Assembly: GCA_016791475.1 (NCBI GenBank)
Contig: JAEUWI010000036.1
Span: 1 to 64,000 of the forward strand
Length of the DNA: 64,000 nt
Source of the DNA: Candidatus Hydrogenedentota bacterium
GTDB lineage: Bacteria; Hydrogenedentota; Hydrogenedentia; Hydrogenedentales; JAEUWI01
Reading direction: 5' to 3'
Position 1 is the first letter of the stretch; each line of letters starts with the position of its first letter. Below the pieces are notes generated by a model. The model did no database searches. It was not told the origin of the DNA and was given only the letters and a program-made list of their open reading frames with translations. The translations under genes were made by a program, and so were the position numbers. Below, piece by piece: positions 35,904 through 39,269 of this stretch.

Positions 35904-35913
35904 ATTAAAGAAT

Positions 35914-36080
35914 GAAGGACTTAAGGGACGGAAAGGACGTAAGGGACGTGAACGAATTCGCCACGAAAAGGGTGAACCGCGATTCCCAAAGCGCGCTCGC
36001 CGGGTCTCGGCCCGGCGTGGCAAGCGAGTCCGCCAGCAATGGTGGGCTCGAAACGTCCTTCAGGTCCTTTCCGTCTTTTA
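35914..36080. repeat. Facing arrays of 9-bp GGAC repeats
   Basis: Four tandem 9-bp units of the type AAGGGACGT run from 35914 to 35949. The inverse complement of three such units occupies 36053-36080, where it reaches the start codon of the next gene. The 12-bp core GACGGAAAGGAC is exact in both arms. About 100 bp of GC-rich DNA separates them. Related 9-bp arrays occur at 41885-41930, 58645-58708 and 59793-59860. Confidence 0.7.
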
Positions 36081-36862
36081 TGTCGTTTGTCCTTGGGCTG
36101 GTTCTCGCAATCGGCGCTCTTTCGGTACCCGCCCAGATCTGCGCCCACCGGGGCGATGTTTCCGCGGCACCGGAGAATACCCTGCCGGCCTTCAGATCCG
36201 CCGTAGAAAAGGGCGCGCAACAAATCGAATTTGATGTCGACCTCACGAAGGACGGCGAGTTGGTCATCATGCACGACGCCACGGTGGATCGCACCACAAA
36301 CGGCAAGGGCAAGGTTACCGAGTTGACCTTCGACGAAATTCGCGCGCTGGACGCGGGCGCGAAGTTTTCAGCGACCTTCAAGGATACGCGCGTGCCCACG
36401 CTCCGCGATGCGCTGGAGGTCATTCCGCCCAAAATCTTATGCAACGTTCACCTCAAGGGGAACACCGAACTGGCCCGGAAGGCCGCCCTGCTGATACAGG
36501 AAATGGGCCGATTGGAGCAGTGCTTCCTCGCCTGCGAACTTGAAAGCGTAGCGGCCGCACGCGAGGTCGTTCCCACGATCAAGACCTGCAACATGAGCCG
36601 CCAGGCCGGTAACCGCGCCGCCTACATTGACGCCACCATCGCAAACAAATGCGAGTACATTCAGCTCCACGAGCGCGACGGCCACGAGAATATCGAAGCG
36701 GACGTGAAAAAACTGCACGACCATGGCGTCACTGTCAACTGGTTCGGCGCCGATGACGCCGCCTTGATCGAAAAACTCAACCGCGCGGGTGTAGACTATG
36801 TTCTGACCGACAAGCTCGATCTCGCGCTAGCGACCATTCAGAAAATAAGGGCCGACAGGTAG
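36080..36862 (+). CDS. Glycerophosphodiester phosphodiesterase
   Basis: A 260-residue GDPD-family enzyme that cleaves glycerophosphodiesters to glycerol-3-phosphate and an alcohol. His23-Arg24 (AHRGD), PENT at 31-34, Glu50 and Asp52 (EFDVD), and His65 (MHD) are the Ca-binding and catalytic residues in the proper order. A hydrophobic N-terminus suggests export. The start at 36080 is uncertain: there is no ribosome site, and the ATG abuts a fold-back repeat arm. Upstream in-frame codons from 35912 are repeat-derived and not believed. Confidence 0.85.
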   Translation: MSFVLGLVLAIGALSVPAQICAHRGDVSAAPENTLPAFRSAVEKGAQQIEFDVDLTKDGELVIMHDATVDRTTNGKGKVTELTFDEIRALDAGAKFSATFKDTRVPTLRDALEVIPPKILCNVHLKGNTELARKAALLIQEMGRLEQCFLACELESVAAAREVVPTIKTCNMSRQAGNRAAYIDATIANKCEYIQLHERDGHENIEADVKKLHDHGVTVNWFGADDAALIEKLNRAGVDYVLTDKLDLALATIQKIRADR

Positions 36863-36923
36863 AGTCCGAGCCCCCAGTCACCCATACGGCCATTCCCGTT
36901 TTCTTCACGAAAGCCAAGACACC

Positions 36924-38036
36924 ATGCCCTACCCCCAGTTCAACCGACACGCCCTGCACATCAAGCCATTGAGCCAGCGCAAAGACAAGGTCTACATCGA
37001 GCGCGATCATGTCGCACCCGACACGACCCCGCGCCCCTTTGACGAAAAGGGCCAGAAACTCATCGCGGAGACCGTGGACCGCATCGTGGCCGCGCGCGAA
37101 GCGGGCAAGTCGCGCATGCTGACCTTTGGCGCCCACTCCATCAAGAACGGCCTGGCGCCCGTCTTCATCAAGCTCATCGAAGAGGGCTGGGTCACCCACC
37201 TGGCCACCAACGGCGCGGGCATCATCCACGACTGGGAATTCGCCTTCCAGGGCCACAGCAGTGAAGACGTGCGCACCAACGTGGACCGGGGCGAATTCGG
37301 CACATGGCAGGAAACCGGCTTTTATCTCAACCTCGCCATCGTGGTCGGCGCCTATGAAGGCCTGGGCTACGGCGAGTCCGTCGGCGCCATGGTGCAGAAC
37401 GAGGGCCTGAAAATCCCGTCCCTCGACGCGCTGACCAAGGAAATTCAGAAGGCCGCCGACCAGGACTACGCCGAACACGCCGCGGCCGCGTGCGACCTCA
37501 TCAACGTGATCAGGAAGTTCAAGCTCGAACCCGGCTTCATGGCGATCAAGCACCCCTTCAAGCAATATGGTATCCAGGGCGCGGCCTACCGCCTCGGCGT
37601 GCCCTTCACCAGCCACCCCATGATCGGGCACGACATCATTTACGTCCACCCGATGAACCAAGGCGCGAGCATTGGCCGCACGGCCGAGCGCGACTTCCTC
37701 ACCTTCGCCCATGGCGTCGCCAACCTCGACGGCGGCGTCTACATGAGCATTGGCTCCGCCGTCATGTCCCCCATGGTCTTTGAGAAGTCCCTTTCCATGT
37801 CGCAGAACCTGGCCATCCAAAAAGGCCAGCATATCGACAATCACTACATGATTATTGTCGACCTGCAGGAGTCCCACTGGGACTGGACCCAGGGCGAGCC
37901 CCCGGCGGACAACCCCGACTACTACCTCCGCTACAACAAGAGTTTTAATCGTATGGGCGGCTCCATGCGCTACCTCACGGCGGACAACCGGGACTTCCTG
38001 CTGGCGATTGCTCAAGGGCTGGACGCAAGGAAGTAG
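36924..38036 (+). CDS. Conserved protein of unknown function, possibly deoxyhypusine-synthase-like
   Basis: A 370-residue cytoplasmic protein with no signal peptide or membrane helix. Conserved-looking stretches are FGAHSIKNGLAPVFIKL, THLATNGAGIIHDWE, SHPMIGHDIIYVHP and GGVYMSIGSAVMSP. The alternation of small Gly-rich turns with strands suggests a Rossmann-like fold, and the overall pattern is faintly reminiscent of deoxyhypusine-synthase relatives, but I could not match the known lysine or NAD-site motifs. No function is assigned. It is 61 bp after the glycerophosphodiesterase on the same strand, and the REP/RAYT region follows. Confidence 0.6.
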   Translation: MPYPQFNRHALHIKPLSQRKDKVYIERDHVAPDTTPRPFDEKGQKLIAETVDRIVAAREAGKSRMLTFGAHSIKNGLAPVFIKLIEEGWVTHLATNGAGIIHDWEFAFQGHSSEDVRTNVDRGEFGTWQETGFYLNLAIVVGAYEGLGYGESVGAMVQNEGLKIPSLDALTKEIQKAADQDYAEHAAAACDLINVIRKFKLEPGFMAIKHPFKQYGIQGAAYRLGVPFTSHPMIGHDIIYVHPMNQGASIGRTAERDFLTFAHGVANLDGGVYMSIGSAVMSPMVFEKSLSMSQNLAIQKGQHIDNHYMIIVDLQESHWDWTQGEPPADNPDYYLRYNKSFNRMGGSMRYLTADNRDFLLAIAQGLDARK

Positions 38037-38067
38037 AAGGTTCTCTCAAAAACTTGGAGGGAGCCCC

Positions 38068-38106
38068 GGGTGCCACCTCAATCCGGCCTCAGCCGGTTTG
38101 GGTGCC
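38068..38106 (+). repeat. REP-like hairpin, family A, copy 1
   Basis: A 39-bp unit: GGGTGCCACCTCAATC, a GC hairpin, then GTTTGGGTGCC. First member of an inverted pair before the RAYT gene. Confidence 0.85.
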
Positions 38107-38247
38107 TCCGAGGGAAACAGGCCACGAGCTACAACAACACCCAAGGTCCGGCTTGTGAACTCCGAACGATAGAGTCCGAGTTTCCTTCCAGAGGCTCAAC
38201 AGGTCCACCCAGGTTACGATCTCCGAGTGCCAATACTCTTTGCTCAA

Positions 38248-38285
38248 GGCACCCAAACGAGCGTTGCTCGATTGAGGTGGCACCC
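38248..38285 (-). repeat. REP-like hairpin, family A, copy 2
   Basis: Inverse orientation to copy 1, with the same 16-bp head and 11-bp tail but a different hairpin core (GAGC-AAC-GCTC). Adjacent to the 3' end of the RAYT gene. Confidence 0.85.
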
Positions 38286-38316
38286 GAGGCCGGTCTTTCG
38301 AGTCGAACGGTCATCC

Positions 38317-38883
38317 TTATAGATCAGGGTATGATTCTAGGTTCAATCGAATCAGCCCAGTCCCCTCCCGTTCCCATTCCCGGGCACTGGACCACTTCCA
38401 GTCCGCGGGCTCGACGGCCAGTCCTCGGCGAACGGGATTGTTATGGGTGTAGTCCACCATATATCGAAGCGTTTTGAACTGAATCACATTCCTATCATAA
38501 CCACCGCCCGCCAACCAGAACCGGTACGGGGCATGCTTTTGGCCTGTGCTCAAATGCTTGAGCCCCTCTGGATTGTTACTCCGGAGCCAGGCCATAGCCT
38601 TGCGTGACACCGAGAGCTTGATCGTCGACAAGATAGATTCCATTTGATACTCCGCATATACTGGCCAAAGCACAAGATGCACATGCTCCGGCATGATCAC
38701 GAAAGCCCAAATGTGGACATTGTGCTGCTTTCGCATCAGCTCAAGAGCCTCAACAAAATACTCACGGGTGCGATCCCGGCTCAGAAACTGCCGTCGCTTG
38801 AAACAACTGAAGGTCACGCCATGGGCCTCTCCCTCGGTGTTAAATGCTTTTCGGGTCTTGCGGATTACCTTGCGGACGACCAT
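38317..38883 (-). CDS. REP-associated tyrosine transposase (RAYT, Y1/HUH superfamily)
   Basis: A 188-residue single-strand DNA transposase of the IS200/IS605-like Y1 superfamily. The HUH metal motif reads HVHLV in MPEHVHLVLWP; the C-terminal YMVDYTHNNPVRRG segment holds the likely catalytic Tyr and the typical HxNPV signature. Length is normal and no frameshift is seen, so it may be active. GGAGG lies ten bases before the ATG at 38883. Two REP-like hairpins lie on each side, the classical arrangement for RAYTs, which are domesticated single-copy genes thought to mobilise REP pairs. Confidence 0.92.
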   Translation of the reverse strand: MVVRKVIRKTRKAFNTEGEAHGVTFSCFKRRQFLSRDRTREYFVEALELMRKQHNVHIWAFVIMPEHVHLVLWPVYAEYQMESILSTIKLSVSRKAMAWLRSNNPEGLKHLSTGQKHAPYRFWLAGGGYDRNVIQFKTLRYMVDYTHNNPVRRGLAVEPADWKWSSAREWEREGTGLIRLNLESYPDL

Positions 38884-39053
38884 TGGACAACCTCCATGCG
38901 GGAAGGGAGACTTCGTATTGCTTCGTCTATCAGTGATTCTTATTCAAAAAAACTATATTAGTACAATTATGCAAGTCAATTCCAACAAGGTGGAATGCCT
39001 CCCATTCCCCGAAAAAGATGCACATACAACCCAAAACTTGCGCCGCCAACCTG

Positions 39054-39092
39054 GGGTGCCACCTCAATCCCGCCTAAGCGGGTTTGGGTGCC
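39054..39092 (+). repeat. REP-like hairpin, family A, copy 3
   Basis: Same head and tail as copy 1, with the hairpin core CCGC-CTAA-GCGG. Confidence 0.85.
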
Positions 39093-39232
39093 CAGAGGGA
39101 GACTTGCCAGGTACAGTCACGACAATTTTAGATCCGGCTTGCTACACCTGAGCCAGTCCAGCTAAACACCGCCAGACGCCCAAAGAGCTCAATCTGGGTC
39201 GCATAAACGAGCCTGAGGTGTCGTCGCTCAAC

Positions 39233-39269
39233 CCACCCAAACGAGCGTTGCTCGATTGTGGTGGCACCC
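39233..39269 (-). repeat. REP-like hairpin, family A, copy 4
   Basis: Inverse orientation; shares the GAGC-AAC-GCTC core with copy 2. One head base (CACAATC for CTCAATC) and the last tail bases differ. Confidence 0.85.

Follow-up and report, generated by a model that had tools for sequence, protein, structure and literature searches.

The window analysed in this work comprises 64,000 nucleotides from the draft genome of a member of Candidatus Hydrogenedentota, an uncultured phylum to which named relatives assign its genus. Since this genome (7.7 Mb) is spread over 529 contigs, the repeat counts given below are lower bounds. The window carries the gene of a REP-associated tyrosine transposase (RAYT) and, on either side of it, an inverted pair of REP hairpins (REPIN), with the following features:

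38057..38067, + strand: sequence just outside REP 1 that is repeated along with it; 17 of 18 copies have C at −4
38068..38285, no strand: REPIN A, 218 bp in length, which lies downstream of the RAYT gene past its stop codon and is predicted to fold as a two-armed hairpin
38068..38106, + strand: REP 1, forming the left end of REPIN A; hairpin preceded by 5′ GGGTGC
38070..38073, + strand: tetranucleotide GTGC at the guide position of REP 1, directly 5′ of the hairpin foot; same place in REPs 2–4
38144..38155, + strand: core motif AGGTCCGGCTTG of REPIN A, nearly the sole conserved part of the core
38248..38285, − strand: REP 2, right end of REPIN A, hairpin unit
38317..38883, − strand: RAYT gene, 188 aa, ATG start; HUH/Y1 single-strand transposase with H67-V-H69, W123, catalytic Y145 and N149
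39054..39269, no strand: REPIN B, 216 bp in length, which lies upstream of the RAYT gene before its start codon
39054..39092, + strand: REP 3, left end of REPIN B, hairpin unit
39130..39141, + strand: core motif AGATCCGGCTTG of REPIN B
39232..39269, − strand: REP 4, diverged copy at the right end of REPIN B, with CCACC-A-CAATC and the tail GGGTGGG

The complete Y1-type transposase that had been predicted at this locus was confirmed: the 188-aa open reading frame is intact and retains H67, H69, Y145 and N149 (HUH and Y-x-x-x-N), which are invariant in 83 aligned members of its clade. The protein scored 82.9 bits against the NCBIfam model NF047646 for REP-associated tyrosine transposases, a narrow pass of the cutoff of 80, and 27.4 bits against Pfam Y1_Tnp (cutoff 23). 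The best PDB match of its predicted structure (pLDDT 90) was TnpAREP (4er8; Z of 17.2, rmsd of 2.4 over 145 residues), compared to a Z of 12.1 for the IS608 transposase and of about 12 for that of ISDra2. The model thereby fits the REP-bound TnpAREP well above these two. The mechanism of the RAYT-REP couple would most likely be that of known REPtrons. The RAYT motifs EHVH / WL / YTHNNP form a row that is absent, as an exact combination, from the TnpAY1 subclass table of PMC6006769, the comparison being by table only.

Heads of the sequence GGGTGCCACCTCAATC were located at 38068-38083 (+), 38270-38285 (−), 39054-39069 (+) and, with one mismatch, 39254-39269 (−); when up to 3 mismatches are allowed, the window holds exactly these four matches, while dinucleotide shuffles averaged 0.77 and never reached four. 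Tails of the sequence GTTTGGGTGCC were found at 38096-38106 (+), 38248-38258 (−) and 39082-39092 (+), copy 4 terminating in GTTTGGGTGGG. The four heads are thus far more than chance would give. Two inverted pairs of imperfect hairpins of 38–39 bp, one pair on either side of the RAYT gene, are present with shared heads and tails and a diverged fourth copy, as the original prediction had it; the pairs face outward. The repeated unit turned out to be wider than first drawn, with about 11 bp outward, where all but one of the 18 copies have C at −4, and TTGAG inward.

Folded as single-stranded DNA, the unit is predicted to leave its 5′ GGGTGC unpaired; the hairpin after it comprises CACC, a bulged T, CAA, a T·T mismatch, a 5-bp stem and a loop of 3–5 nt. 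Bases 1–6 are unpaired in the predicted folds of REPs 1–3, and copy 4 pairs one extra base. It had been proposed that only the loop cores differ among copies; differences are indeed present, but they concern mostly upper stem pairs whose two bases vary jointly with pairing preserved (CCGGC/GCCGG, CCCGC/GCGGG, CGAGC/GCTCG). In 16 genomic units, 97.4% of the stem cells were paired versus 89.0% in shuffles, and 13 stem cells, located in two stem pairs, were changed on both sides versus 5.1 in shuffles, far above slid controls. These compensatory changes support the view that the hairpin is what is kept. On a larger scale, the region of REPIN A (38064-38289) is predicted to fold into a long two-armed hairpin with an MFE of −53.8 kcal/mol (z of −6.1).

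The 16-bp head, searched at up to 1 mismatch, gave 18 matches in its own genome and none with a reversed-pattern control; the REPs beside the RAYT are thus also found scattered through its own genome. The same search in 99 other genomes, three congeners included, gave 0 or 1 match each. Eighteen copies are few compared with classic REP families. Most of them make up 7 full outward-facing pairs of 204–243 bp, that is, REPINs, as well as one pair, on contig C22, that has collapsed to a single 43-bp palindrome. GTGC occupies the guide position in all four copies of the window and, genome-wide, in almost every head. REPIN ends are near-identical across copies; the cores are unalike save for a 10–12 bp motif resembling ATCCGGCTTG at a fixed place in most of them (38144-38155 and 39130-39141 in the window). 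By ORF position the sites are largely intergenic, with ORFs overlapping three of them (C22, C52 and C63). Near a REPIN of this family on contig C33, a REP-like hairpin of a different family with the canonical tag GTGGCACAGGCGTCCCGCCTGTG was observed (L007:1421-1450).

No near-identical second copy of the window RAYT was found in its own genome, where the paralogues are 58% and 23% identical. The former, at C10:120880, carries in its flanks another head, GGGTGCCACCCACACCCGG, present in about 24 copies; two distant RAYT-like genes at 23% identity lie at G000:C9:73089-73598 and G000:C14:39707-40183. The congeners G001, G002 and G003 possess RAYTs at 53–60% identity, and their own heads, at up to 2 mismatches, occur 23, 194 and 93 times, respectively. 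The flanks of the RAYTs G001_C13, G002_C411 and G003_C255 bear those heads or close variants, and every related RAYT examined that had a hairpin tag had its own head. Since heads are RAYT-specific both in this genome and in the congeners, the REP family follows the RAYT. The link between copy number and the presence of this RAYT, for which a check had been proposed, was therefore borne out, and the small hairpin-repeat family around the window RAYT was apparently generated by that RAYT. A third REP family, GGGTGCCACCCTCAAGCG, was counted 8 times in the same genome when 1 mismatch was allowed (e.g., L078, L085, L091 and L097). The assembly contains no RAYT to match it; G001 and G003 do have RAYTs bearing this head, and the family is either an orphan or has its gene inside an assembly gap.

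The GDPD and GSU2086-family genes at 35912-38036 of the window are also adjacent in the three congeners. Behind this conserved pair the congeners carry neither a RAYT nor the next gene of the window, which encodes a DUF6786 protein, and therefore insertion and rearrangement are indistinguishable there; this comparison with the congeners gave no sign of an empty site or of movement.

Given the observed anatomy, dispersal, RAYT-specific families and compensatory stem changes, together with the predicted fold, the locus is very probably a REPtron, i.e., a domesticated single-strand-DNA transposase gene with its cognate REPs, for which we infer REP binding, cleavage and mobility in the cell. We take it for a genuine REPtron that would operate as known REPtrons do, but with a non-canonical guide. 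In the mechanism that we propose, a strand that becomes single-stranded would allow each REP to fold into an imperfect hairpin with the unpaired 5′ GGGTGC, and the RAYT would recognize this hairpin together with the GTGC guide adjoining its foot. Cleavage of the strand by Tyr145 would follow at the HUH/metal site, and REPINs, the inverted REP pairs of about 204–243 bp, would be moved or copied by the RAYT into intergenic places. Through use by the RAYT the REP ends would stay alike while the REPIN core drifts, and RAYT and REP would diverge jointly, resulting in one REP family per RAYT lineage.

The repeats could instead be functional intergenic RNA or DNA elements (terminators or mRNA stabilisers) under host selection, the RAYT being a neighbour by chance or only their ancestral source. 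Their mostly intergenic sites and the very stable predicted folding of the long inverted pairs agree with such a role, but the repeats are confined to one species while a flanking gene is conserved at 84–88% in congeners, several families within one genus track RAYT identity, and no Rfam match was obtained, so we regard this explanation as improbable. About as improbable is an insertion sequence of the IS200/IS605 type, in which the RAYT would be the transposase of a hairpin-ended element and the other copies its deleted remnants. The HUH/Y1 fold is identical in kind and hairpins flank the gene on both sides; however, the protein reached only 24.4 bits against the NCBIfam IS200 model (cutoff 55) while passing the REP transposase model, the genome lacks the near-identical second gene copy, and each side bears a complete inverted pair instead of one end, with dispersed pairs of similar length that display no signs of gene remnants. 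Least probable is a TIRtron, a tyrosine transposase between long non-REP terminal inverted repeats (TIRYT, PMC3733652), given that, although the outer 16–25 bp of each pair do form long inverted repeats, each repeat is a hairpin in its own right, with stem pairs that covary, and the repeats are dispersed, stand as inverted pairs on both sides and have the tag-plus-hairpin layout of REPs.

The REPtron of the window shares with that of E. coli (TnpAREP/RAYT, 4er8; GTAG REP, BIMEs) the HUH/Y1 fold, Y-x-x-x-N, a W at the guide site, imperfect bulged hairpins with an unpaired 5′ guide, and inverted REP pairs; it differs in its guide (GTGC instead of GTAG), in the L after W where the E. coli enzyme has Q95, and in an identity of 21% over the structure alignment. 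As in the REPINs of Pseudomonas fluorescens (PMC3116915), inverted REP doublets linked to a RAYT are dispersed as a unit, but here they measure 204–243 bp with unalike cores, bear another tag and belong to another phylum. Short palindromes with an unpaired tetranucleotide are likewise typical of the GTAG- and CGTC-tagged REP superfamilies (PMC3733652) and of the TnpAY1 subclasses (PMC6006769); the last guide base of the present family is C. The original prediction placed the established pairing of RAYT and REP in Gammaproteobacteria; the pairing is known, but also outside that class and within the PVC group, as GTAG-type REPs have been reported in Planctomycetes and Verrucomicrobia (PMC3733652, PMC6006769). 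Our literature search found no description of RAYT-REP pairs in Hydrogenedentota, and the locus extends such pairs to this phylum. As far as we searched, the Hydrogenedentota families, the GTGC guide, the repeated switch between GTGC and GTGG and the candidate residue 30 treated below are new. To our knowledge, there is no biochemistry for the clade of the window RAYT.

In published REPs, the bases directly 5′ of the hairpin are GTAG, GTGG or close variants ending in G (PMC3733652, PMC6006769, PMC2817692), and with GTGC in that place the window family falls outside the GTAG-type superfamily as defined by GTAG or GTGG (GTRG). No natural GTGC guide was found in the open literature, most subscription papers lying outside the scope of the search. 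In the Marinomonas REPtron Mb, an engineered GTAC guide shifted cleavage from C(A/T) to G(A/T) (PMC8266576); since these laboratory guides were cleaved, at GA/GT, a C in last place can work. That C was introduced by mutation, whereas it is natural in the window family.

We also analysed 80 relatives of the RAYT in named genomes, mostly Planctomycetota and a few Zixibacteria, which were retrieved with an alignment query, a single-protein scan of genome contigs having given none; the phylum around genome G324 comprises 7 genomes. The two 8-mers most enriched near these RAYTs were GGGTGGCA, at 48 of 80 loci versus 7.7 expected, and GGGTGCCA, at 31 of 80 versus 4.2, the two counts overlapping in part because near-palindromic heads such as GGGTGCCACCC can be read as both. 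With the hairpin setting the orientation, the clade tag is GG-GTG[G/C]-CA, common to Hydrogenedentota, Planctomycetota and Zixibacteria. The unit had been considered lineage-specific, which is correct for its lower sequence but not for the first eight bases, GGGTG[G/C]CA, which belong to this wide multi-phylum clade. Of 85 rule-labelled RAYTs, 34 had GTGG as the tetranucleotide at the guide position, 27 had GTGC and 4 were mixed, while the remaining 20 gave no call; repeat searches built on GT[AG]G would overlook families of the GTGC type. If the guide must stay unpaired, the first base after the hairpin is expected to avoid pairing with the last guide base, and the two were the same in 48 cases and complementary in 11 (p of 1.3e-7, kinship ignored), which suggests that the guide needs to remain single-stranded.

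This clade bears on how domesticated transposases select their repeats and remain matched to them. Among the 60 RAYTs that were labelled first, residue 30 stood out, being R (21), Y (3), H (1), Q (1) or K (1) with GTGC, and N (10), G (9), R (5), S (3) or others with GTGG. The prediction derived for residue 30 was fixed before 80 further loci, mostly with Planctomycetota RAYTs, were fetched, and it held: among 42 new RAYTs (less than 85% identical to the first set), small and large residues numbered 12 and 10 with GTGG, and 0 and 20 with GTGC (Fisher p of 7e-5). In the combined sets, R, Y, K, H or Q stood at residue 30 in 48 of 48 GTGC RAYTs, while GTGG RAYTs often had N, G or S. On the tree we counted at least 19 guide changes versus 34 for shuffled labels, so the guide partly follows descent. 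Well-supported branches provided only 6 independent pairs, of which on average 4.5 agreed and 0 disagreed (sign test p of 0.03–0.5), and with so few pairs the tracking of the last guide base by residue 30, weak once phylogeny is corrected for, is suggestive and not established. In the model, residue 30 would lie just past the strand 20–27 (end of beta-1), and sequence alignment places it near R22/R23 of 4er8; as the region around beta-1 touches the guide in the E. coli enzyme (PMC8266576), such a role is structurally plausible. It is possible, although we lean somewhat against it, that the last guide base of the clade switches repeatedly between G and C and that the transposase follows via residue 30 and perhaps a few other positions, with R/Y/K/H/Q accompanying GTGC and N/G/S accompanying only GTGG. 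If true, this correspondence would amount to a specificity code, natural and readable, that links a single-strand transposase to its guide. The clade offers dozens of natural RAYT/REP pairs that vary in a single guide base, and because a candidate residue tracks this base, recognition is testable by simple swaps; the in vitro comparison consulted (PMC8266576) spans three pairs.

Other candidates were discarded. At Q124 (Q95 in E. coli), residues other than Q occurred nearly only with GTGC, but many of those rows are close relatives of the window RAYT and a phylogeny-aware test was null. Cleavage retargeting would have made G[ACT] the more conserved flank at GTGC loci and C[ACT] at GTGG loci; the opposite was seen (one-sided p of 0.999), and since the flanking-dinucleotide shift expected from Marinomonas was not seen here, we claim no changed cleavage site. 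A flank motif common to all REP families amounted to just a weak C/T at −1, and no convincing motif was shared by the cores of the other REP families. Positions 66 and 153 were associated with the guide, but appear to track one GTGG subclade. In a Hydrogenedentota RAYT subclade comprising L064 (G001:C47), L136, L138, L141 and L150, position 66 is N or T and position 153 is A, tagged relatives having mostly E and R, respectively. The GGGTGSCA tag with a hairpin was not found near the RAYT genes of these five loci; L064 bears an array of inverted copies with GTGTGCCAGTCGT.
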